Made by a program: the position numbers and the translations under genes. Source: Halichondria panicea (taxonomy: Eukaryota; Porifera; Demospongiae; Suberitida; Halichondriidae). Taken from it: a stretch of 64,000 bases of DNA. This document shows, piece after piece, positions 591 to 33,276 of this stretch; within the stretch, counting starts at the first letter, position 1; each line of letters begins with the position of its first letter. The notes under the pieces are model-generated. The model was not told the origin of the DNA. It ran no database searches and saw nothing but the letters and a program-made list of their open reading frames with translations. The stretch is taken from positions 2,990,001 to 3,054,000 of the forward strand of contig NC_087390.1 of NCBI RefSeq assembly GCF_963675165.1, in the 5' to 3' direction.

Positions 591-1275
591 GTTACGTTCC
601 CAGCGTAGTGTTTGATCTGGAAATGCTCGTCCCTCTCCAAGTCCTTGTTGGTCGGGTCCAGCTGACGACTCGTGTAGTGGGCGTGGACTTTGTACCTCTC
701 GTCCATTGCATGCAGGAAATGCTACACAGGGTGGTGGGTACAAGCATTCGTACAAATCAGTTACACCGCTATAGTGCTGAGGTATTTAAACGAAAACCAT
801 GTAATAACAAAATATCCAGGAATCCTTAACGTTAGTTTAATTTCCTACTACTCTTCACCTACAAAACAGAGCTCTCGTGAATTCATGCTCATAGTTGGAC
901 TTCACCATGGTTACAAGTTCCACCTACCTTGTCAGTGACGGTGCCCACAAGGAAGCAGGCTTCGTCCAGTAGAGCAATCACTCCCGTCTGCTTCACTTCC
1001 ATCAGGTCACAGATAATCTTGTTGTTGAAGTAGTCGATCTTTGAAAAGTAAGAAACAATTAATAGAGAAAACAATAAGGACGCTTAGATCACGCTTAGAT
1101 CAAATAATACTGAATCCATTTTCATGAACATGAATATAATTATACTGATGTTGGTCTTACCTGTACCCACTCTATACCCTCCCGTTGGTACTCCTCCTGC
1201 TCCAGTTTGAGCACCAGCTCAATGAACAGCTGCTGCAGCTTCTCGTTGCAATAGTTGATGCACAGCTGCTCAAAA
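591..1275 (-). CDS. Class I myosin heavy chain, partial motor domain (three exons)
   Basis: Three minus-strand exons encode consecutive motor-domain pieces of an unconventional class I myosin, an actin-based membrane-linked motor. Exons in gene order are 1161..1275 ([17 protein letters not shown], ending GIEWVQ), 928..1038 ([17 protein letters not shown], ending VTDK) and 591..721 ([13 protein letters not shown] to HYAGNV). Acceptor and donor dinucleotides fit, and the phases join cleanly. The NYCNEKLQ and DYFNN motifs of the relay and switch-II side of the motor are clear. The P-loop, switch I, IQ and tail regions are not present: upstream lie a 200-N gap and non-coding sequence, and downstream the window ends. 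The gene may be complete outside the window or fragmentary. A MYO1D/G-like affinity is a guess. Confidence 0.85.
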
Positions 1276-1474
1276 CTGAACGGAAGGGAATACAATGTAA
1301 TAATACAGTGGACTTAGTACTGGATTTGTGACAAATAGATATGTTAACCCTTTACCAGAACTATTTCTACAGACTGTTTGTGAAATATCGGTGTGTTGAT
1401 CTTTTACCAGACACTCTGAAATTGCTCACCCACACATACATGAAATGTTACTAGACAGTGTGATGATCTTTACC

Positions 1475-1674
1475 NNNNNNNNNNNNNNNNNNNNNNNNNN
1501 NNNNNNNNNNNNNNNNNNNNNNNNNNNNNNNNNNNNNNNNNNNNNNNNNNNNNNNNNNNNNNNNNNNNNNNNNNNNNNNNNNNNNNNNNNNNNNNNNNNN
1601 NNNNNNNNNNNNNNNNNNNNNNNNNNNNNNNNNNNNNNNNNNNNNNNNNNNNNNNNNNNNNNNNNNNNNNNNNN
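1475..1674. other. Assembly gap (200 N)
   Basis: A run of exactly 200 N, probably an arbitrary scaffold gap. It lies upstream of the visible myosin-I exons, where the N-terminal motor exons would be expected, so some may be hidden here. Confidence 1.
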
Positions 1675-2472
1675 CATGCATGCAGAGTGAGACATACATT
1701 ACTGTCATAGGAACAAAGACGAGCAGGGCCTCTTCACAACACAAGTAAACCATAGAGCCTTGCTCTACGTACATAGGGCTGAGATAGAGGTAATAAAACA
1801 CACATGGAAAAAAGAACAAGTGTGTCCACAGGTGGCTGACTACCATGCATCCTCCACAATTTCTTGCTCTTCGATTTGCAGTTTATTCTCAACTTCGCCA
1901 GGAAAAGTTCTTGATAACAAAGTGCATGGGCTGCGGCTGCTGCTTGTATTCTCAGTAGTATATGCTCAGCCTATATGAATGCATGCATGCATGTGCTGTG
2001 TATACAATGGCTATGTGCTGCCACACTGTAACGCAGGCCTTATTTTGCACATAATTATGGCTGCCTTATACTGTTATTGTCAGTGACCAAGCAGCACAGA
2101 TTATAGGCTAGTAATATATTCTGTATTGGAGTTTAGATCTACATAAACATTATAGCCATTGATTCTCAACTCATCCTCCTATTACTGTTGTGCTGGCTTG
2201 ACTCCACTGCTCTGAATAGACTTCTCTAGGGGGGCCCTATAATCACTAAGGGGGGCGTAAACCGCTAGTGCATTGGGGCCCCCCCTTACACCCCAAATCA
2301 CTAGCGTTTTAGGGCCGGGGGCCCATATCGCTTCTACACCGTAATTGATTGCGTTCCTCCCACCTTACTTCACTTGTACAGGAATACATATAATTATAGA
2401 TACATGTGCAACGAAGTAATAATCGAAACACATGAATGAAAATGTTCACATAATTTGTCAAGCCAGACTACA
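1675..2472. other. Intergenic, no gene seen
   Basis: I see no supported exon. Around 2225-2335 is a GC-rich patch of G and C runs with an imperfect inverted structure (CTAGTGCATTGG against CACTAGCG), possibly a decayed short element. Confidence 0.4.
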
Positions 2473-3395
2473 TCATGACCTATCAACACTCAATTCCATC
2501 CATAATCCCCAGTGGTCGCTAGGGAAACGACCACAATCTTCAAGTCTCTCTTTGCCCACCAAACCAAAACCCTTGGCTCTCACACCACCATCCTTTGAGT
2601 GCAGATAGACACGGTCAAATCGGCACTTTGGTTTGTTTGGATAGGTCCATTGGAGATTGTCGTTCTTGGATACATCCCAGGTGAACTTCTCATCCTCAAT
2701 TGAACCACAGGCCTCCCACACATCCACTGTGTCAGCTGGCAAACCGACCGATTTCACTTCATGGTCACGAATGTTCAAATCTCCTCCAAATATCCAAGTC
2801 GGGTTTTCAGAAATAATTTCAAACACTTTAGAAAGCTGAGCTTTTCTTGGCCCTCCGTAATCTTTCATACTCTCCAAATGAGATGTGAGTAAATTGATTT
2901 CAACTCCACCGAACACCACAGTACAAAAAAGAACATGCCGTCCCATGACTGTTTCCGGCAGGTCAATACACATCATGTTATCTCTAAAAAGCAGTCCTTT
3001 AGTTTTAAGTACCAAGATGGCGACATAGTAGCCGTATCTCTCACCAGCTCCTGGAGCAGAGTAATAGTCGTAATCGGCACCTAATGACTTGAGAATCTCC
3101 ATTTCCGTGGATGGGACAACTTCTTGCAGGAACACTGCATGCGGTCGTCGTGACGATATGAGCTTGCACACTGCTTGAGCTCGCCTAATGGTGTCTCTTT
3201 TATCCAAACCATCGATGTTCCAGGATAGCAGAGTGAATGCCTCTGAGCTGCAGGGGGTAAGAGTGATTATATGTGTCATAGAAGACTATGATCTCTTCTT
3301 ACTCACTGTCAGACTATGACATAATAGCTATACATGATCAAATAAGGTTGTAAAAACAGTTTGTTAGGTACATAATACCTTGTTTGTTCAGCCAT
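2473..3395 (-). CDS. TDP2: Tyrosyl-DNA phosphodiesterase 2
   Basis: Endonuclease/exonuclease/phosphatase-fold enzyme that removes 5'-tyrosyl adducts left by trapped topoisomerase II, acting in the nucleus with Mg2+. The model is complement(2473..3247, 3379..3395): a 17-nt first exon (MAEQT plus two bases) is spliced to a single long exon, giving 263 aa. Family signatures are in order: SWNIDGLD near residue 11, LQEV, TSHLES, GGDLNIRD and the C-terminal SDHWGL, with the catalytic Asn, Glu, Asp and His all kept. The vertebrate N-terminal UBA domain is absent, so the protein is essentially the catalytic domain alone. Its start lies 140 bp from the divergent L-rhamnonate dehydratase start. Confidence 0.94.
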
Positions 3396-8445: not shown

Positions 8446-11400
8446 TCAGAGAAAATCACGATCAAACTCGATGTATTTCATCTTCTGAGCCAATATCTTC
8501 TCAACGAAAGCGACTGTCTCTCCTTTCTTGCTACACGTTCCAGCGGTAACGTCACATGTATGGTCCTCAGGACAACAATGGACATTATCAGAACAACACA
8601 CAGCACTAGGCAAAGGACAACAAGCGTACTCGCCTGGAAAGCCCTTGCAACATGTATTTCCATCGGAGCATTGGGTCTGGCCATCGGGACACATTACGCT
8701 CTTGGGTGATTTCACAGCAGCAATTTTCTCAAAGCTAGCAATTGTCTCTCCTTTCTTGCTACAAGTTCCAGCGGAAGGGTCACAGGTATAGCCGCTGGGA
8801 CAACAATGGACACCATCAGAACAACACACAGCACTAGGTATTGGGCAGCAACCCCATTGACCGGAAGAGAGCTTGCAACAAGTGTTTCCATTGGGGCATT
8901 GGCTCTGGCCATCGGGACACATTACGCTCTCGGGATATTTCACGGCAGCAATTTTCTCAAAGAAAGCGATTGTCTCTCCTTTCTTGCTACAAGTTCCAAC
9001 GGAAGGGTTACAGGTATAGCCGCTGGGACAACAATGGACACCATCTGAACAACACACAGCACTAGGTATTGGGCAGCAACCCCATTGACCGGAAGAGAGC
9101 TTGCAACAAGTGTTTCCATTGGGGCATTCGCTCTGGCCATCGGGACACACGACACTCTTGGGTGATTTCACAGCTGCAATTTTCTCAAAGAAAGCAATTG
9201 TCTCTCCTTTCTTGGTACAAGTTCCAGCGGTAACGTCACAGGTATAGCCGTTGGGACAACAATGGACACCATCAGAACAACACACAGCACTAGGTATTGG
9301 GCAGCAACCATATTTACCGGAAGAGAGCTTGCAACAAGTGTTTCCATTGGGGCATTGGCTCTGGCCGTCGGGACACATTACGCTCTTGGGAGATTTCACA
9401 GCAGCAATTTTCTCAAAGAAAGCGATAGTCTCTCCTTTTTTGCTACAAGCTCCACTGGAAACGTCACAGGTATAGCCGCTGGGACAACAATGGACACCAT
9501 CTGAACAACACACAGCACTAGGTATTGGGCAGCAACCCCATTGACCAGAAGAGAGCTTGCAACAAGTATTTCCATTGGGGCATTCGCTCTTGTTATCTGG
9601 ACACATTACGCTCTTGGGTGATTTCACAGCTGCAATTTTCTCAAAGAAAGCAATTGTCTCTCCTTTCTTGGTACAAGTTCCAGCGTTAACGTCACAGGTA
9701 TAGCCGTTGGGACAACAATGGACACCATCAGAACAACACACAGCACTAGGTATTGGGCAGCAACCCCATTGACCGGAAGAGAGCTTGCAACAAGTGTTTC
9801 CATTGGGGCATTGGCTCTGGCCATCGGGACACATTACGCTCTCGGGATATTTCACGGCAGCAATTTTCTCAAAGAAAGCGATTGTCTCTCCTTTCTTGCT
9901 ACAAGTTCCAACGGAAGGGTTACAGGTATAGCCGCTGGGACAACAATGGACACCATCAGAACAACACACAGCACTAGGTATTGGGCAGCAACCCCATTGA
10001 CCGGAAGAGAGCTTGCAACAAGTGTTTCCATTGGGGCATTCGCTCTGGCCATCGGGACACACGACACTCTTGGGTGATTTCACAGCTGCAATTTTCTCAA
10101 AGAAAGCGATTGTCTCTCCTTTCTTGCTACAAGTTCCAACGGAAGGGTTACATGTATAGCCGTTGGGACAACAATGGATACCATCAGAACAACACACAGC
10201 ACTAGGTATTGGGCAGCAACCCCATTGACCGGAAGAGAGCTTGCAACAAGTGTTTCCATTGGGGCATTGGGTCTGGCCATCGGGACACACTACGCTCTCG
10301 GGATATTTCACGGCAGCAATTTTCTCAAAGAAAGCAATTGTCTCTCCTTTCTTGCTACAAGTTCCAACGGAAGGGTTACAGGTATAGCCGCTGGGACAAC
10401 AATGGACACCATCAGAACAACACACAGCACTAGGTATTGGGCAGCAACCCCATTGACCGGAAGAGTCCTTGCAACAAGTGTTTCCATTGGGGCATTCGCT
10501 CTGGCCATCGGGACACACGACACTCTTGGGTGATTTCACAGCTGCAATTTTCTCAAAGAAAGCAATTGTCTCTCCTTTTTTGGTACAAGTTCCAGCGGTA
10601 ACGTCACAGGTATAGCCGTTGGGACAACAATGGACACCATCAGAACAACACACAGCACTAGGTATTGGGCAGCAACCATATTTACCGGAAGAGAGCTTGC
10701 AACAAGTGTTTCCATTGGGGCATTGGCTTTGGCCGTCGGGACACATTACGCTCTTGGGAGATTTCACAGCAGCAATTTTCTCAAAGAAAGCGATAGTCTC
10801 TCCTTTTTTGCTACAAGCTCCACTGGAAACGTCACAGGTATAGCCGCTGGGACAACAATGGACACCATCTGAACAACACACAGCACTAGGTATTGGGCAG
10901 CAACCCCATTGACCAGAAGAGAGCTTGCAACAAGTATTTCCATTGGGGCATTCGCTCTTGTTATCTGGACACATTACGCTCTTGGGTGATTTCACAGCTG
11001 CAATTTTCTCAAAGAAAGCAATTGTCTCTCCTTTCTTGGTACAAGTTCCAGCGTTAATGTCACAGGTATAGCCGTTGGGACAACAATGGACACCATCAGA
11101 ACAACACACAGCACTAGGTATTGGGCAGCAACCCCATTGACCGGAAGAGAGCTTGCAACAAGTGTTTCCATTGGGGCATTGGCTCTGGCCATCGGGACAC
11201 ATCACGCTCTTGGGAGATTTCACAGCAACAATTTTCTCAAAGAAAGCAATTGTCTCTCCTTTCTTGCTACAAGTTCCAGCGGAGGGGTCACAGGTATAGC
11301 CGCTGGGACAACAATGGACACCATCTGAACAACACACAGCACTAGGTATTGGGCAGCAACCCCATTGACCAGAAGAGAGCTTGCAACAAGTATTTCCATT

Positions 11401-13099
11401 GGGGCATTCGCTCTGGCCATCGGGACACACGACACTCTTGAGTGATTTCACAGCTGCAATTTTCTCAAAAAAAGCTATTGTCTCTCCTTTCTTGGTACAA
11501 GCTCCACTGGAAACGTCACAGGTATAGCCGCTGGGACAACAATGGATATGATCAGAACAACACACAGCATTAGCATTTGGACAACAACCATATTGACCGG
11601 AAGCGAGCATGCAACAAGTGTTTCCATTGGGGCATTCGCTCTTGTTATCTGGGCACACTACGTTCATGGGTGATTTAACAGTTGTAAAGAAAGCGATAGT
11701 CTCTCCTTTCTTGCTACAAGCTCCACTGGAAACGTCACAGGTATAGCCGCTGGGACAACAATGGACACCATCAGAACAACACACAGCACTAGGTATTGGG
11801 CAGCAACCATATTTACCGGAAGAGAGCTTGCAACAAGTGTTTCCATTGGGGCATTCGCTCTGGCCATCGGGACACACGACACTCTTGGGAGATTTCACAG
11901 CAGCAATTTTCTCAAAGAAAGCGATTGTCTCTCCTTTCTTGCTACAAGTTCCAACGGAAGGGTTACAGGTATAGCCGCTGGGACAACAATGGACACCATC
12001 AGAACAACACACAGCACTAGGTATTGGGCAGCAACCCCATTGACCGGAAGAGAGCTTGCAACAAGTGTTTCCATCGGGGCATTGGCTCTGGCCATCAGGA
12101 CACACGACACTTTTGGGTGATTTCACAGCTGCAATTTTCTCAAAGAAAGCAATTGTCTCTCCTTTCTTGCTACAAGCTCCACTGGAAACGTCACAAGTAT
12201 AGCCGTTGGGACAACAATGGACACCATCAGAACAACACACGGCTATAGGTATTGGACAGCAACCCCACTGACCGGCAGTAAGCTTGCAACAAGTGTTTTC
12301 AGCAGGGCATTCGCTCCGTTTATCTGGACACACGACACTCTTCGGTGATTTAACTTCAGTAAGCATTTTCATCACTATTTGACCAAAATAGTCAGTACAA
12401 GTTCCATCGCTATTGCATGCATAGTCGGTAGGACAACAGTGCAGACCATCTTTACAACAAACAGCTCCAGATATAGGACAACATCCGTAACCGTCGTTAC
12501 TCTCCAGTTTGCAGCATGTGTTATTGTTGGGACAATTAGAACCATCAACACAAGTGACGATCTCAGGAGATGTTGAAATTGCTACCATATCTATTAGCTC
12601 ATTGCTCGGTGATTTTGCACATGATTTGGTCGTAACGTCACAGGTGTATCCACTAGGGCAGCAGTGAACCTTGTCTGCACAACAGGAAGCTCCGGGATGA
12701 GGACAACAGCCCCAGCCTGCAGTGAGTTGACAGCAGGTGGCAGTGCTGGAGCAGTTGGTCTTCTTATCCGCACATTGGTGTTCAGCGAACTGCAGTAAAT
12801 AGGAAGTTAATTAATATCATTCATGTACTTCCAGATATTTTCCTGCTGTGCTATAATAATAATTTTACAGTAACTATTGAGAAAAGGAAACTGAATGCAA
12901 CTACAGACAGTAGGAATAAAAGCTCCAGCTTGTATTAATAAACAAGCAAACTTGTAAAAGATATAATTTTATTTTACCACAATTTTTATCCCTGATACTA
13001 AACCACACTTACATCAATTTGCTCAAATATTGGATGAGCAAGAGATATTCCAATAAATGAAAGAGTCACGAACAAGATCACAGAGCTAGAGAGCTGCAT
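8446..13099 (-). CDS. Secreted multi-granulin (progranulin-like) protein, 19 granulin domains
   Basis: Two exons, complement(8446..12789, 13013..13099), encode 1476 aa. Exon 1 is a signal peptide (MQLSSSVILFVTLSFIG to SLAHP, about 21 residues) plus eight residues. Exon 2 carries 19 tandem granulin domains. Each full domain has the 12-Cys pattern with four CC pairs (TCC, GCC, VCC, HCC). Most repeat at 76 aa (228 bp) with an almost invariant linker, KKGETIAFFEKIAAVKSPKS, which holds a KK pair that could be a processing site. The first three domains are the most diverged and the inner ones nearly identical. Human progranulin has seven and a half domains, so this is greatly expanded. The product is presumably an extracellular or lysosomal growth-factor-like precursor. 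The signal peptide decides the start. Confidence 0.96.
8700..12150 (-). repeat. 228-bp granulin repeat array with higher-order copies
   Basis: Coding tandem repeats of period 228 bp. Near-identical stretches recur at an offset of 1368 bp (six units), for example 9251-9475 against 10619-10843 and 9624-9824 against 10992-11192. A second offset of 912 bp (four units) links 8841-9065 with 9753-9977. Confidence 0.93.
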
Positions 13100-13282: not shown

Positions 13283-16200
13283 ATGGCTGAGAATGTGAAA
13301 GTTGCAGTCCGTGTTAGACCATTCATATCCTAACAGCTAACTCCTATAAGTCACTTGATGCATCTATTACTGCAAGTGGTTTAGCTACACATTTAATTGA
13401 GTGCATTATTTTAACGTCAGCTAATTCCCTTAACCCCATCTCACAATCAACGGGAGCTGACACGCAAGGCGAAAGTGATCATCCAGATGCATGGTCACTC
13501 CACTTCCATTTTTGACCCAACCCAACCGAACGCTGAGCCCAAGAAATTCTCCTTTGATTACAGCTACTGGTCACATGACGGGTTCAGTGAGAATACGGAC
13601 GGCTATCTGGCCCCTGAAAGTGCAGATTATGCAGATCAGGTGACTAATTCATGGGCAATCATGGCTCAATAATTATATTATAGCTAACATATGGCTGTTT
13701 CACAATAATTTTATGATAATTATGACAATGTTTGAGGGAAAATTGTTCTTCCTCTAGATCTACTTGTGTAACACACTACATCTTATACCTGCAGAAAAAG
13801 GTGTTTAGTGATCTTGGTAAAGGAGTGCTTGACAATGCCTGGAAGGGGTACAACTGCTCCTTGTTTGCCTACGGGCAGACCGGCTCTGGAAAGTCCTTTT
13901 CCATGGTTGGGTATGGAGCTAATAAAGGTTATATTACAATGATCTTAACGAGCTGTTACAAGTGTTGGTTTGTATGAATTGGCCTCTAAGTCTCGAATTC
14001 ATGCAGTCGGGTGGTATATAGTAATGTTGACTTGAATTCTACCACTTAAAACGTACCCAAGCTAGCTAGTATAATTGTCCTAATGCAGTTCTTTTTTCCC
14101 TGTATACTGCAGGAATTGTTCCAGTGACCTGTGAAGAGCTATTCAAAGGAATAGAAAGCAAGGCTGACTCTGGTGTGCAGTTCCAAGTGGTACTGAGCAT
14201 GTTGGAGATATACAATGAGCAAGTGAGAGACCTTCTCAACCCTGCCTCCAACGTCAAAGGGGGGCTCAAAGTCAGGGAACACCCCAGCAGGGGGTTTTAT
14301 GGTATGTGTGGAAGGAAATAGCTATTCGTTGCCCATAAAATTCTACATGAATAACGACCGATGCTTGCCAATAAAACTTCCACAATGACAATTTTTTCTA
14401 CTATCGCAGTTGACCAGTTGCGTTCAGTGGCTGTAAAGAACTATGAGGACATTGAGAAGAGGATTGCCGAGGGCACTAAGAACCGCACCATCGCCTCCAC
14501 TAACATGAATGCCACATCCTCTAGAGCACACACTATTGTGGCTGTTACCTTTGTACAGAAGACCAACAATGAAGCGGGGAAAGGCATGACAAAGACGTCT
14601 GTTATCAACCTTGTGGATCTGGCAGGAAGGTACATATAAATACACTAACTTGTAGCTCTCTTTACAGATGATGTACATGCATGTACGTACGCACAACGAT
14701 AACATTTAATTAGTAGTAGAGTATGTTAGGTGTGACTAGGGACGTTTAACACTGGCTGATGTTAATTTTCAATTACTTATCTTTCCCATGCTACACAGTG
14801 AAAGAGCTGACTCCACTGGTGCCGTGGGTGCAAGACTGCAAGAGGGGGCGGCCATCAATAAGTCACTGTCTACTCTCGGGAATGTTATCAAAGGTGTGTC
14901 AAATTGAAATACTGCATTATTGATAACATGCCTCATTCAGCACTCGCTGATGCCTCTACTGGGAAGAAAACACTTGGTAAGTATTGCACTAGGATGCTAG
15001 CTTTTTACAGCTCCTTTGATTAATTCTCAACATACAGTTCCATTTCGAGATTCAGTTCTGACCAAACTGCTCAAGAATGCACTGGGTGGCAACTCAAAAA
15101 CTATTATGGTTAGAACAACAGAAATGATAATTATGGTCAACTTTCTATATACCTCTCATATTCATGCAGATTGCAGCTCTGAGTCCGGCAGACATTAATT
15201 ATGATGAGACTCTTTCAACACTAAGATTTGGTATAATATATGACCCACCCCCCATACACAAAGTCAATGACATGTGCGATATACTAGCTATAGTTTTAGC
15301 ATGTGTTTTCATTATCTACAGCTGATCGTGCCAAGAGTATCAAAACCACAGCAACAGTAAATGAGAGTGCAACAGACAAACTCATCCGAGAGCTTCGGGA
15401 GGAGAATGCTCGATTGCTGGAAATGATAAAGAATGGGCAACTCAGTCCAAGTGCCTTAGCAATTGGGGAAGAGTCAACGTCCGTAGATGCAGGTTTGTGA
15501 ATATCGATACTGCATTTACATACTGCACCTTGTAATGAGATGAGTGTTAATGGGTAATGTAATGTGCAGATGAGATTCGAAGGAACATGGAAATGGAGCT
15601 AGCTGAGACGGTAAGTGCACTGTACTTGTTGTTTCTGAAGTGTATTCTTGTCCGTGTATTTGTATTGTAGCTAGAGGCTAACAAAAGAGAGATGGAGGAG
15701 ATGCAGAAGTCATGGGAACAGAAGCTGGCAGAATCTCAGAAAACGCATCAGGTCAGTTCAATTTTTAAAGTAGTAGTATAGTAGACTAGTAAGGGGGTTG
15801 CAATAAAATGAACTGGCTGTAACAGTGTGCATGCATGTACGTATACTGACAGTGTACGTTTAGAGTGTACTACATGCAGTCTGTGCTTGGTTGTTTGTGT
15901 CCCATGCTTTCTTCCAATCTTTAGGAGAAAGACAAACAAGAGGCAAAAAGGAGCAAGGATTTGCAGAAACTGCCTCACTTATGGAATCTTAATGAGGACC
16001 CTCAGCTGACAAATATGGTCTCTCACATAGTGAAAACGGGGAAGAGTAAAATAGGCAACAAAAAGGCAAAGACACCACCGGAAATTCTTCTGCAAGGACT
16101 CAGTATTCAAACACAGCATGCTGTGGTTAGCAATACGGACAACAAAGAGATCAAATTGTGTCCTGTGGAGGGAGCTAAGATTCTACTCAATGGAGAACCG

Positions 16201-19035
16201 CTCACTGGCTCTGTCATACTACATCACAATGACAGGTTAGAATGAGTAGCGAAATATTTTGCCGTGTCTAGTTGATCACCTTTATATAGTTTCTATCTTT
16301 CGGAGCTATACCTGTCACACACTGAATGTCCAAATTGTAAGCTTATAATAATATAATTATGACTCTATTTTGTTCGTGCAGGGTTTTGTTCGGTTCCAAC
16401 CATCTGTACGTATTTCATCACCCGAAGGAACTGCATTCCCTGATCAAGTCAAGCAAGAAACCAAAGGCCATCACGTATGACTTTGCACAGGGAGAAATAG
16501 CTACGAGTTCGGGATTTGATATGAGTACTGAGGGTAAAAGCAAAGACGACATCTTGCTGCAACAAGACCTCATCTCTCTCATGCCCATGGTGTACGAAGC
16601 CAATGCCATCAGTGAGGAGCTGAACAAGAAGGTTAGTGAATATCGTTTAATTGGTAACTCAAGTTGTGTCTATTCATCATGTAAAACGTTGCATGGGTCT
16701 CCTGCATTTTAAAAGTACCAAAGCTCTGTAAATTGTAATGAGTTCTAGTCATCCATTTCAATGGAGCCGCCTATTCAGATGGTATGCTTAAATCTCAAAT
16801 TTGGAGCAGCATAATTTTTCAATCTCGGCAAAAGACCATGGGCATAAATTAATAAGCCCATAGAAATTGGTTTCAACACGTCAATCTTTGCACTACATGC
16901 ATGGATACCGTATCATTGATGTGAAGCAATTGTACACGCATATGTACAATGTATGGTACAGTGAAATAAAAATCTAAGTCAATTAAAAAATATATAGTAC
17001 ATCACCAAACATATACAATTTTGACATTTTATGGTTATACCTTCTCAATTGCTGCTTTACCTACATGACTGGATGATGTTGATCACAGCACACTGCACAC
17101 TTATACTCTTTCAGATGTATTTTGAGATTATCCTGGTGTCCCCACAAGCGCGAGGACTTAAGGAGGGACGGACCGAGGTTAAAGTCAAGATGAGGAGTTT
17201 GGTCAACGATGACTCATGTTTGTTCGGCCGAAACAACTTCCTCGATAGAAAATATCGTATGCAGGAAATGTACCAGAACTACATCGAAGGCGGGGACTGG
17301 GACCTGCAGGAGGTGGGCTATCATGAGTACTCGTAGCTTAATATTTTGTTGCTCTATGCATGGTGAAACGTGACTGACATTAATTGATATTGTGTTAATT
17401 TTAGTTAAGCTAAGCTAACAACACTAGCTTATTTAATACACTGTTCTAAGTAGTTCCCCACCCGCCCCCCCTCTCAGGAGAAGAGTCCGTTCTGGCAGCC
17501 AGCTGATATTGATGTGCATATCGGATCTGTACACGTCTACCTGCAAAGCTTGACTTACATGGTACATAATAACTATTATGGGCACAACCACTACAGAATC
17601 TGTTGTACTGACATGTACGTGACTTCTATACGTTTAGATTGAGCTTGAGGAGCAGTTGACAATCACGGATTACAAGGGTAACGAGCAAGGGCTCCTTAGT
17701 GTGGAGGTGTGGCCTTGCAACAAAGACGGGACCACCCTTTCTGACAACGAGGACCTGTTTGTAGAAGACCCAGAGGAATTGGTAAGAGTTGTTTAACATC
17801 CTTTTGCCGATAGCCCCTCTTATTTCTCCCTCTTCCCCTAGCTTGGCAAGACAGTGAACTTCCTGCTTCGAGTGGCCCATGCTCGTGGCATACCCCCCAA
17901 ACTGAGCAAAGGTGTCTACTGTAAGTACAAGTTCTATCTGGACAGTGAAGATACCGACACACAGAGGATCTCCGGGACAACCAACCCTGAGTTCGAGTTC
18001 TCCAAACATTACTGTATCAATCCGGTCACTAAACAGTTTCTGGATTACCTCAACTTGCAACCACTTATTATTGAGGTCTGGGGACAGCAGGTGAGCGATT
18101 ATAAGGTGGTGGTTTCATACACAACATTCTGATATGCATGAATCCGTGTCACCTGTACACTTCTTTATTACGCTATATAAATACAGTACTACGTAAGTGG
18201 GATATAAATACACTGCAATGAACTACCGGAGATGTACATTATATTACTGTTATGGAAACATTCATTGTTGCTATTGCATTTCGATTACATGTCCTGACAC
18301 TTCACCATGCAGTCGAGTCAATCTACAAAAGGAACCGCAGCACAGCTGAACACAAGGGAGCTGGTCTCCAAGGAAACCACTCGGATTGGCAGTGCAGCCA
18401 TGCTCAATCCCACAAAACAGAAGGTGTAAAACACAATCTTTAGCGGCACGTACCATTGTGTATAGACATACACATGTAGTCATTATAATTTATAGTGTGT
18501 GTGTCATATACAGTACTAGCTAGTGTACTCAAACCTCCTTCCCACGCAGGACGAGGAGCGTTATCGGCTAATGTGTGAGCTGTCAGGGGCCAAGAGGAGG
18601 GCGGAGCGAATGGAGAGCAAAGTTCGCAAGATCAGGGCTCTTGTGGAAAAGGCAGACAATGAGAAAGTAGAAGAGCTAAAGGTGAGAGCAGTCTTAAATT
18701 ACATTTTGCTTTGTCTAATAAATGTTATGATTATACACACCTGGATTGTTGTATACATGTAAAGTGCTATACTGTATAGATTATACACATTATAGAATGT
18801 GTAACCGTTACTTTATCACACCTGTACCTCCCACCCATTCTACACACAGGTCTCCGAAGTGAAGGACATTCTAAACAGTGAGGCACACACCTTCAAGGCT
18901 GTGGCCACAATGGTAGCTCTTACTAACAGGGCCAATGTATTTAAGAAAAACAAAGCCAGTGTATTAACAAAGAACAGCAAAGCCACAGCAGCGGAAACAA
19001 CCAACAGCGAGTCTCAGATCTGCTCTGTCATGTAA
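13283..19035 (+). CDS. Kinesin-3 family motor (KIF28/KLP-6-like) with FHA domain and C-terminal CaaX box
   Basis: Plus-end microtubule motor of 999 aa in 21 exons: 13283..13324, 13445..13639, 13795..13927, 14113..14301, 14410..14629, 14799..14893, 14941..14976, 15038..15108, 15170..15230, 15322..15492, 15570..15610, 15671..15751, 15925..16235, 16382..16631, 17115..17312, 17478..17561, 17638..17781, 17842..18090, 18313..18423, 18550..18681 and 18850..19035; they sum to 3000 nt. The motor shows VRVRPF, P-loop GQTGSGKS (about 106-113), switch [11 protein letters not shown] and switch II LVDLAG. A short coiled coil leads to an FHA domain ([12 protein letters not shown] to [15 protein letters not shown]). 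A KIF1B-like and C2-like region follows, then a helical tail. There is no PH domain; the protein ends CSVM, a CaaX box. Intron 1 appears to be of AT-AC type. AATAAA at 19034 overlaps the stop. Confidence 0.93.
13325..13444 (+). other. Candidate U12-type AT-AC intron (kinesin intron 1)
   Basis: A 120-bp intron that starts ATATCCTAA (U12 consensus ATATCCTTT), carries TTCCCTTAAC at 13425-13434 (branch-site consensus TTCCTTAAC) about 11 nt before its end, and ends CTCAC. Removing it joins VRVRPF to [10 protein letters not shown] in frame, as the kinesin-3 family expects. No GT-AG pair here gives that join. Confidence 0.85.
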
Positions 19036-30561: not shown

Positions 30562-33276
30562 TTAATTTGAGAATAGTCCTGGAAACCAGTACAGTCTCTC
30601 CTCGCCACTCTGATCATCCACCCACGCCATGCTCTCACGTACCAAGTGGTCCTACAGGGATGAAGGACACATCATATACAGTGCAATAGCTTTAGCATTG
30701 TTGGCCCATGATTCATGCAGTATTGACAGAACCCACAGCCTAACAAACAACAAACTTATTACAGTGATAGAGAGCTACAAATAACTTAGTCTCTCTCCTC
30801 ACATTTCAAACTCAAGTTATAAAATAATAATGGGCACACACGACGGTTTGCTTAATTTGTCCTCACCAGAATGCTGTGTGCCCTCATCTCAGTCCAACCC
30901 AGTTCCTTGACCAGTTCACCCACACTGGTGTACGATGTATCCTACAGGGAGGAGGGGTATGCCTCAAGATCACATCATACTAACCGAAAAACTGTACAAT
31001 TATTAATATTCATCTTAGCCTCGTCCCCACACCCACTTCCTCTCCTGCTTGTGGAGGAGGCTAGTATGCATCTATGCTATTACTACTAGTTATGTATACC
31101 TCAGCTTTTGCCAGCACTGCGGTGTGGTCCATGTTTAACTCTCCTGGCACTGACTGCACCAGCCGATGTTTACCCACCGGAATCACTGCAAACCCTCCAC
31201 CCAATATGCGTAATTTTTTTATAGCTCTCGCCAAGTCATCTTCTGTCACATCTTGTCGAGTCTTGCCACTGGTTGCTAGGACACGCCGTCTCAACTCGTC
31301 AAAACTTATTAACCCTGTTATTATAATATAAAACACAAGGTTTAATCTAGCGAAGGGGCTGGGGGAAGCTTCCCTTTTCTAAAATAGTCAGCTTCCCCTC
31401 AAGCATATATGAAGTGTTTTCATTAACTGTAAGCAATCAATTTCAGAAATGAGCACGGCCCAACATTTTCAGGCATGCTATCGCGAGCACCGTAATTATA
31501 ACTTTCTCCCCAATCCTAGAATAGATGAAACTCTGAGTCATCGTACGGTAATAACTATACATACCTCCATTTCTGTCTCTGGTTGCTAGGCAGATTTCTA
31601 CAACTTGTACTCCGAGCTGTAGGGGGAAAGATTGGAATGATATTGCCAGCAACACACATTAGGTAGTTGTACCAAAGAGAGAGTATATAAGCTCACACAC
31701 ACTAGGTAGTTGTACCAAAGAGAGAGTATATAAGCTCACACACACACTAGGTAGTTGTACCAAAGAGAGAGTATATAAGCTCACACACACACAGGTAGTT
31801 GTACCAAAGAGAGAGTATAAGCTCACACACACTAGGTAGTTGTACCAAAGAGAGAGTATAAGCTCACACACACACTAGGTAGTTGTACCAAAGAGAGAGA
31901 ATAAGCTCACACACACACTAGGTAGTTGTACCAAAGAGAGAGTATAAGCTCACACACACACACACACACACACCTCATAATAGAAGTCCCCCACTCCGAG
32001 TGCCTGAGCCCAGAATCCTTTACTAGCTGTAGCGGGGACGGGTGGGAACAGAGAGTTATAGACAAGTTAACTTGTACATTGTGAATGTATAGTACACTAT
32101 CATCCATATCTCGATACACATGAATACACGTAGATTAATAATTATTAACAAAGTTATACTGCACTCACAAGCCAGGGGGTCCACACCTATTCGAGCGCAC
32201 ATCTGCTGGAAGTGACCTCTGAACTCTCCATTCTTGCGGATGTCCTGCTTGTGCTTAGACGCAAACTGCTCGAGGTGTTTACGAAACGTGTCCAACTGAG
32301 AGGTGACCTACGGACAATACAGAACGAAATTAATATAGATAATGCCAAACAACCATGTTGATCTAGTGCAGACGTAGACTCGCCAGCCAGCCCTTCCTCG
32401 GGGTAAGGGACTGGTGGATTGCCTATCTGAGAGTTGTGCCGGTGGAATTTTAATGAGTTGCATGACATCATGTATGACATCATCATGTGGTTTGTAATGT
32501 CTGATATGCGTGGGTTGCAAACAGCTACACAATTACAAATAAGCTCCCCTTGCTTAGTTTGTGGCAGAGAAACCAAGAAACATTGAGACTGGTGGTAGAA
32601 GGCTATACTGTCAAGCCTTTCCATCCCCAGACTGGAAAGATTTTCTCCAATGTAAGACAAGTGGTGCAAATCATTTACATATTAAAGTCACTGGAGGATT
32701 TGTCTCAATTGCAGCTAGCTAGCTTGATTGATAAGTTCTGCTTGGTCGCTTAATCTTGCACTAGTAGCACAGTCTTGCCCATCCATTATTTTGTTATTAT
32801 CATGCATTCTACCACAAAGAAATTAACTAAACAATACTGTGGGCGTAAGAATGTCACATGACATTGATACTGCACTCTGATTGGTCATTACCAGATTCAG
32901 GTAACGGCACAATTCTCAGATAGGCAATCCACCAGTCCTTTACCCCGAGGAAGGGCTGGCTGGCGAGTCTAGTGCAGATGTAGGTACGGAGTATAGTAAC
33001 ATACATGGGTGAACTGTAGGTCCGCTATTTCAGAGCTCTTTGCAGCGTATTTATCCTGTGGAACAATTATGATAGGCATGGATCAAGATATATAAACTTG
33101 TACAGAAGCTCTTGGAAGTTTCTCTAAATACGTATCTCACAAGCCGAATAATCTGGCAATAATTGAGAGCCAGCAATCATCTATTGTGATCTAGGTAGCC
33201 ATCAAGGATGACTATAACCAACCTTAACAAACTTGTCTTTCTTTATAGCTCCTAAACCAGCTCTTCTTCTAGCCAT
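30562..33276 (-). CDS. SNF8: ESCRT-II subunit SNF8/VPS22 (EAP30)
   Basis: Winged-helix subunit of ESCRT-II, which sorts ubiquitinated membrane cargo into multivesicular endosomes. Eight exons, complement(30562..30651, 30867..30941, 31100..31314, 31565..31616, 31974..32026, 32169..32307, 33005..33055, 33223..33276), sum to 729 nt and 242 aa (human 258). Diagnostic stretches: [100 protein letters not shown] and YWFPGLF. Intron 2 holds a 593-bp foldback element and intron 4 a minisatellite beginning with a TG repeat at the donor. It shares a divergent promoter with ARPC2. Confidence 0.97.
31661..31972. repeat. Minisatellite, 42-46-bp unit, about seven copies, plus (CA)n
   Basis: Direct copies of AGGTAGTTGTACCAAAGAGA with GAGTATATAAGCTC and a CACACA spacer of varying length, all within SNF8 intron 4. 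The CA tract at 31950-31972 touches the splice donor (GTGTGTG on the sense strand). Confidence 0.93.
32377..32969. mobile_element. Foldback/MITE-like element with ~66-bp inverted ends
   Basis: A 593-bp insertion in SNF8 intron 2. The left end is GACTCGCCAGCCAGCCCTTC and the right end is its reverse complement; the arms match over about 66 bp with only a few differences. It is bracketed by TAGTGCAGACGTA (32364-32376) and TAGTGCAGATGTA (32970-32982), a 12/13 direct repeat that looks like a target duplication. Interior non-coding. Confidence 0.85.

Follow-up and report, generated by a model that had tools for sequence, protein, structure and literature searches.

The window analysed here is a stretch of 64,000 nucleotides of the Halichondria panicea genome (C14:2990001-3054000, in an assembly of 131 Mb and 39 contigs). 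On its forward strand lies a gene that we modelled from 13283 to 16631 as 14 exons with hand-placed introns, the model stopping before the 3' part of the gene (Table 1). After removal of one AT-AC intron and the 12 other introns, all of which are GT-AG, the exons translate into 632 residues without a stop. In Pfam searches, the kinesin motor (PF00225) was complete, covering model positions 1-327 of 327 at 353.1 bits; an FHA domain scored 26.7 bits and a microtubule-binding match 72.7 bits. The combination of motor and FHA domain identifies the protein as a kinesin-3. The top PDB sequence match was 7wrg_A (679 bits, query residues 3-631), which we take to be a KLP-6/KIF28-type kinesin. As this match exceeds that to KIF1A (414 bits), we regard the gene as a kinesin-3 of the 7wrg type.

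A second gene lies head-to-head with the kinesin gene on the reverse strand. By eye, it carries many similar granulin-like cysteine repeats in one open stretch of 1454 aa (8446-12810) and a likely signal-peptide exon at about 13010-13099. The two start codons are about 180 bp apart, and the arrangement suggests that the granulin-like and kinesin-3 genes have a common promoter.

Table 1. Features of the kinesin-3 locus, with coordinates in the window, and donors of the other U12-type introns, with coordinates in their own loci
Feature	Position	Strand	Remarks
Coding exon 1	13283..13324	+	ATG at 13283; 14 aa, 42 nt, ends in phase 0
U12-type AT-AC intron (predicted), 120 nt	13325..13444	+	Donor, branch site, coding join
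U12-type 5' splice site ATATCCTAAC	13325..13334	+	RTATCCT core; A at +8 and A at +9, not T
In-frame TAA if the intron is retained	13331..13333	+	Two codons past RPF
Branch site TTCCCTTAAC	13425..13434	+	Contains TCCCTTAAC (13426-13434), one mismatch to TTCCTTAAC
AC 3' splice site	13443..13444	+	11 nt past branch A 13433
Coding exon 2	13445..13639	+	First letters AATCAACGGGAG; protein ends SADYADQ
Remaining kinesin-3 gene, motor to FHA domain	13640..16631	+	12 GT-AG introns, modelled by hand
Donor, L014 (kinesin), ATATCCTCTC			Coding join
Donor, L028 (STX6), GTATCCACAG			Coding join
Donor, L031 (PHB2), ATATCCTCTA			Coding join
Donor, L038 (TMEM41B), GTATCCTCAC			Coding join
Donor, L045 (DHHC gene), ATATCCTCAT			Coding join
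Donor, L050 (DHHC gene), ATATCCTCAA			Coding join
Donor, L052 (DHHC gene), ATATCCTTAT			Coding join
Donor, L053 (DHHC gene), GTATCCTGAC			Coding join
Donor, L055 (DHHC gene), GTATCCTACC			Coding join
Donor, L010 (kinesin), GTATCCAAGA	2360-2672		Kept as probable only

A predicted U12-type AT-AC intron at the start of the motor

The original prediction had placed an AT-AC intron with U12-type features after the first codons of the motor, and both its coordinates and its letters proved correct. The predicted U12-type donor has the RTATCCT core (ATATCCT, 13325-13331), but the full consensus that had been invoked is lacking; the donor reads ATATCCTAA and not ATATCCTTT, with the TT of the consensus at +8/+9 unmatched. 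The branch motif is likewise present near the 3' end, with one mismatch, and its distance had been misstated, as 10 nt and not 11 nt follow TTCCCTTAAC. Counted back from the last intron base (13444), the candidate branch adenosines at 13432 and 13433 are 12 and 11 nt away; the intron ends in CATCTCAC.

Excision of the intron preserves phase 0 and joins VRVRPF to NQRE, the join that kinesin-3 motors had been said to need. Enumeration of splice pairs gave 56 stop-free joins (25 AT-AC, 25 GT-AG and 6 GC-AG), which were scored against two kinesin-3 sequences; among the best 25 of 56, which were listed, the pair 13325/13444 ranked first (score 599). After RPF, which ends at 13324, neither GT nor GC occurs before the TAA, so that, in agreement with the prediction, RPF cannot be kept by any GT-AG or GC-AG intron. 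The major spliceosome might instead remove the interval as a GT-AG intron, the best being 13313-13420 (GTTAGACCA ... ACGTCAG), which has a stop-free in-frame join and is the top-scoring GT-AG pair (537 versus 599). However, this pair destroys the RVRPF present in the aligned kinesin-3 chains and gives no account of the U12 donor and branch site, and we consider its use very improbable. All GT-AG and GC-AG alternatives to 13325-13444 were rejected as outscored in the list of 56 joins.

Another possibility is an AT-AC intron of the rare type handled by the major spliceosome. Such introns are known, as in SCN4A intron 21, and the sodium-channel examples in the available part of PMC2831892 have G at +5, whereas in the intron at 13325-13444 both +5 and +6 are C and a U12 branch site lies 10 nt from the 3' end. 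This reading, to which we give hardly any weight, was rejected on the grounds that +5 is not G.

It is equally implausible that the true start of the gene lies further downstream, or that this is a pseudogene, with the intron-like features a coincidence. The coding sequence ahead of the intron is a single 42-nt exon, as this would allow, but that exon encodes the conserved kinesin start, and the motor in the 632-aa model is complete and without a stop. Thirty randomised copies of the window, generated with an order-2 Markov model, were scanned on both strands, with lengths to about 200 nt and no reading frame required. Sets of AT-AC donor, branch site and acceptor occurred by chance at a mean of 0.17 per copy, and coincidence was rejected as the origin of the features. 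The same scan of the real window returned the intron 13325-13444 and one weak GT-AG candidate (30937-31433).

Our results thus strongly support a genuine U12-dependent AT-AC intron at 13325-13444, with splicing predicted from the letters of the locus; we infer that it is spliced in vivo and that the gene depends on this splicing. U11 and U12 would recognise ATATCCT and TTCCCTTAAC jointly, U4atac/U6atac.U5 would then displace U11, and the exon past the AC end would be joined to give VRVRPF-NQRE; without splicing, the frame would stop two codons past RPF.

Among the kinesin loci of this genome that were compared, four other genes have a VRVRPx start, and none has an intron at this place: three (L007, L008 and L010) have GT donors 8, 8 and 10 nt past the RPx codon (donors only), and L018 (= L024) reads through at the site. 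The U12 intron thus does not share the position used in these four genes. This counts against the reading, as do the departure of the donor from the published consensus at +8 and +9 and its very weak computed pairing with the U6atac of the genome, described below.

Minor-spliceosome RNA genes and a U6atac candidate with an altered donor-pairing box

The original prediction had proposed a genome search for U11, U12, U4atac and U6atac. Searches of the whole genome returned one gene for each above the Rfam gathering score: U12 with 108.1 bits (gathering score 53; best 42 candidates scored), U11 with 86.2 bits (39; best 39 scored), U4atac (L003, contig C6) with 59.6 bits (53; best 48 scored) and U6atac (L004, contig C17) with 102.6 bits (33; best 46 scored). 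The genome therefore encodes all four RNAs, and together with the ten further coding-supported U12-type introns described below, this supports the proposal that a minor spliceosome has been retained in the lineage. The family of PDCD7, presumably a U11/U12 protein, matched at two places about 1 kb apart (27.8 and 27.1 bits, cut-off 27), the second of which has an internal stop. By eye, each of the four RNA genes is preceded by an ACCACA(A/C)A motif at about -60 (ACCACAAATACATGACA upstream of U11 and U4atac, ACCACACATACTAGCA upstream of U12 and ACCACAAACTG upstream of U6atac) and a TATAAA-like box near -30. U11 retains AAAAGGG.

The U6atac gene matches the covariance model over positions 1-126 of 126 (RF00619), keeps the GAGAGAAGGUUAGCA core and the 3' stem-loop/domain, and terminates in TTTTTTCT, a run of six T. 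However, this sole detected U6atac has GAGCCGAGAGA in place of the family GAAAGGAGAGA. In the Rfam alignment, the family consensus GUGUUGUaUGAAAGGAGAGAAGG corresponds to GUGUUGUAUGAGCCGAGAGAAGG here, so that consensus positions 12-14 read GCC and not AAG (A12G, A13C, G14C), with G15 kept. The donor-pairing box AAAGGA is thus absent from the only U6atac found, which has AGCCGA there; for this reason we term the gene a U6atac candidate, whose function as U6atac we infer. When the assembly was searched for the consensus core with as many as 3 mismatches allowed, no second copy was found. A scan of prokaryote contigs for the U6atac core pattern gave 0 matches, and the single match in a viral contig (L027) was rejected, being on reading unlike a U6atac gene.

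A predicted U4atac/U6atac cofold has long helices, with U4atac GUCCUUAUC complementary to U6atac GAUAAGGAC. U4atac CCUUUCAUACAACA is complementary to the consensus U6atac UGUUGUAUGAAAGG over 14 nt, but only about 10 to 11 nt of this match remain with the observed UGUUGUAUGAGCCG. Such a mismatch would be expected if the change in U6atac were recent, or if the assembly lacked a second gene. Suppressor mutants in cultured cells show that, in human U6atac, G14 and G15 pair with C6 and C5 of the donor (PMC4980772, in the part available). By extrapolation of this register, U6atac A13, A12 and A11 would face donor +7, +8 and +9. With less certainty, A12G, A13C and G14C would then oppose donor +8, +7 and +6 and make the usual pairs there unavailable.

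Other U12-type introns in the genome

Further introns were sampled from gene-family loci by three scans, each of which also required a branch site and an acceptor: scan 1 allowed at most 2 mismatches to TATCCTTT, scan 2 looked for RT followed by ATCC with at most 1 mismatch, and scan 3 looked for RTATC in 38 loci on both strands. The resulting sample comprises 11 coding-supported U12-type introns including that of the window (Table 1). The L014 intron came from scan 1, that of STX6 from exon reading, those of PHB2 and TMEM41B from scan 2, and the others from scan 3. Judging from their peptides, L028, L031 and L038 are probably STX6, PHB2 and TMEM41B, and in our judgement their intron positions presumably coincide with the human ones. 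Table 2 of PMC2831892, in the portion available, lists a U12-type intron for PHB2, STX6 and TMEM41B in both fly and human.

A cluster of DHHC genes lies at C9 5157006-5170947, and three of them (L045, L050 and L052) share the site of an AT-AC U12-type intron. Of these, L045 and L052 arose by recent copying (149/150 upstream exon bases identical); their introns agree in the last 56 bases, which include the branch site and 3' end, and differ at +8 (C versus T). The minor introns of this cluster have multiplied through gene duplication. In L055, a U12-type GT-AG intron (1217-1501, reverse strand) splits the DHHC motif region (DHHC|PW).

Several candidates were rejected and left out of the donor count. 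L045 1894-2057 (ATATCCTAAG) has a short, non-homologous join. The GT-AG candidate of the window at 30937-31433 (forward strand; GTATCCTACA/TTCATTAAC) has an open join with at least 27 aa on each side and is weak, with only 6 nt past the branch-site motif. L062 469-857 (GTATCCTCGC) has a left frame of just 9 aa. A second VTT-domain locus (L039) has, by eye, a U2-type GT-AG intron at the comparable place. The remaining rows of scans 1-3, on either strand, had no recognisable coding join, mostly as judged by eye. At up to 2 mismatches, a coding-supported U12-type intron was found in 0/12 further kinesin gene pieces.

Donor positions +8 and +9

According to the available part of PMC2831892, donor positions +1 to +8 (ATATCCTT) are nearly invariant in U12-type introns. 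Among our 11 introns, +7 is T in 9 and A in 2, +8 is C in 6, A in 3, and G and T in 1 each, and +9 is A in 7, T in 2, and C and G in 1 each. The scans largely imposed T, A, T and C at +2 to +5, and partly C at +6, so that the constancy of these bases is no evidence. The pattern of scan 1, TATCCTTT, favours T, so that its bias opposes the conclusion of drift.

If T had a frequency of 0.9, 0.7 or 0.5 at +8, the probability of finding it there in at most one of 11 introns would be 1e-9, 5e-5 or 0.006, respectively; for 0/9 it would be 2e-5 at 70%. Measured against the base make-up of nine introns, C at +8 in 6/11 has a p of 0.011 and A at +9 in 7/11 a p of 0.003, both values ignoring kinship. We consider it unlikely that the drift at +8/+9 is unrelated to U6atac or that it reflects bad luck in the sampling of the 11 introns. 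The sample is small (n=11), a single DHHC cluster supplied three paralogous members, two of these nearly identical, and the L010 intron is only probable; moreover, U11 retains its bases facing +8/+9 and would be expected to go on favouring T there, and U6atac A11, facing +9, is unchanged as well. On the other hand, sampling would have to account for a probability of 5e-5 for T in at most 1/11 at a frequency of 70%, and +6 and +7, which are still paired by U11, are kept.

In computed duplexes, 10/11 donors bind the family-consensus U6atac segment more strongly than the observed one; for the donor of the window, the values are -0.3 kcal/mol with its own U6atac and -4.5 with the family-consensus box. 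The exception is L045, which is marginally better with the observed segment, and for L014, L031 and L045 the observed fit is about equal to the consensus fit. These duplexes, and the better fit of U4atac CCUUUCAUACAACA to the consensus box (14 nt) than to the observed one (about 10 nt), raise the possibility that a family-consensus U6atac gene is missing from the assembly, which may be incomplete, and that the copy on C17 is a diverged paralogue. This is conceivable but doubtful: the C17 gene has promoter-like motifs, the T-run, GAGAGAAGGUUAGCA, the 3' domain and 102.6 bits, it alone was found in the assembly by the core search at up to 3 mismatches, and the donors mostly lack T at +8/+9, which argues against a hidden consensus U6atac.

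Alternatively, the donor code itself may have been rewritten, the sole U6atac having changed from AAAGG to AGCCG and the minor introns from RTATCCTTT to approximately RTATCCTCA. We see the case for this as evenly poised, because the duplexes are mostly weak, U4atac is complementary to the consensus, and the U11 bases are unchanged at +8/+9. If the code was rewritten, +5 to +7, paired by an unchanged U11, would have been kept although +6 and +7 had lost their U6atac partners, and +8 would have drifted opposite a changed U6atac base; +9 would have drifted too, its partner A11 being unchanged but beside lost pairs. With these pairs lost and the U11-paired TCCT retained, the choice of donor would fall mainly to U11 and to U6atac contacts at +4/+5. 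A new pairing may have arisen between C at +8 and G12 in register, or U6atac UGAG might pair with donor C6-U7-C8-A9, followed by a CC bulge and then by G15-C5 and A16-U4. Otherwise, donor fidelity would come from U11 and two U6atac pairs.

DISCUSSION

The intron at 13325-13444 is very probably a genuine and, as such, ordinary example of the known U12-type AT-AC introns. With the U12 introns of PHB2, STX6 and KCMF1 in fly and human, as given in the available part of PMC2831892, it shares the AT-AC ends, the ATATCCT donor, a TTCCTTAAC-like branch site near the 3' end and its place as the lone minor intron among GT-AG introns. Unlike the known U12 AT-AC introns, it has A A and not T T at +8/+9, and its host is a kinesin-3. 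The word "kinesin" is absent from the accessible portions of the minor-intron texts PMC10639083, PMC2831892, PMC6717393 and PMC6865273, a scope that excludes the full gene tables. Among the matches listed, the titles and abstract openings report neither a minor intron in a kinesin of the 7wrg-type group nor a comparable U6atac change.

Unlike the U6atac family RF00619, in which consensus positions 12-14 are AAG, the candidate described here has GCC within the donor-pairing box. Pairing of U6atac with the donor is reportedly needed for the splicing of minor introns in vivo, as the title of a 1998 study by Incorvaia and Padgett has it. The laboratory suppressor U6atac GG14/15CC (PMC4980772, in the part available) is altered in the same box and shares the change of G14 to C. 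The present case differs in that the changes affect A12, A13 and G14 and spare G15, in that it is natural, and in that no matching CC5/6GG donor change was seen.

The minor spliceosomal system of Physarum polycephalum is said to be expanded and transformed, going by the title of Larue et al. 2021. That organism has over 20,000 minor introns (PMC8329584, in the part available), whereas 11 were examined here, a sample that is not genome-wide.

The part worth following lies outside the window: the altered U6atac candidate together with the donor drift, whose reading as a drifted donor code has about an even chance of holding. Searches based on ATATCCTTT could miss introns with drifted donors, and surveys of snRNAs by covariance model only, as in the available part of PMC10639083, would overlook the change in the U6atac box. 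If true, this would be a natural genome in which to weigh the share of U11 against that of U6atac in the recognition of minor introns.
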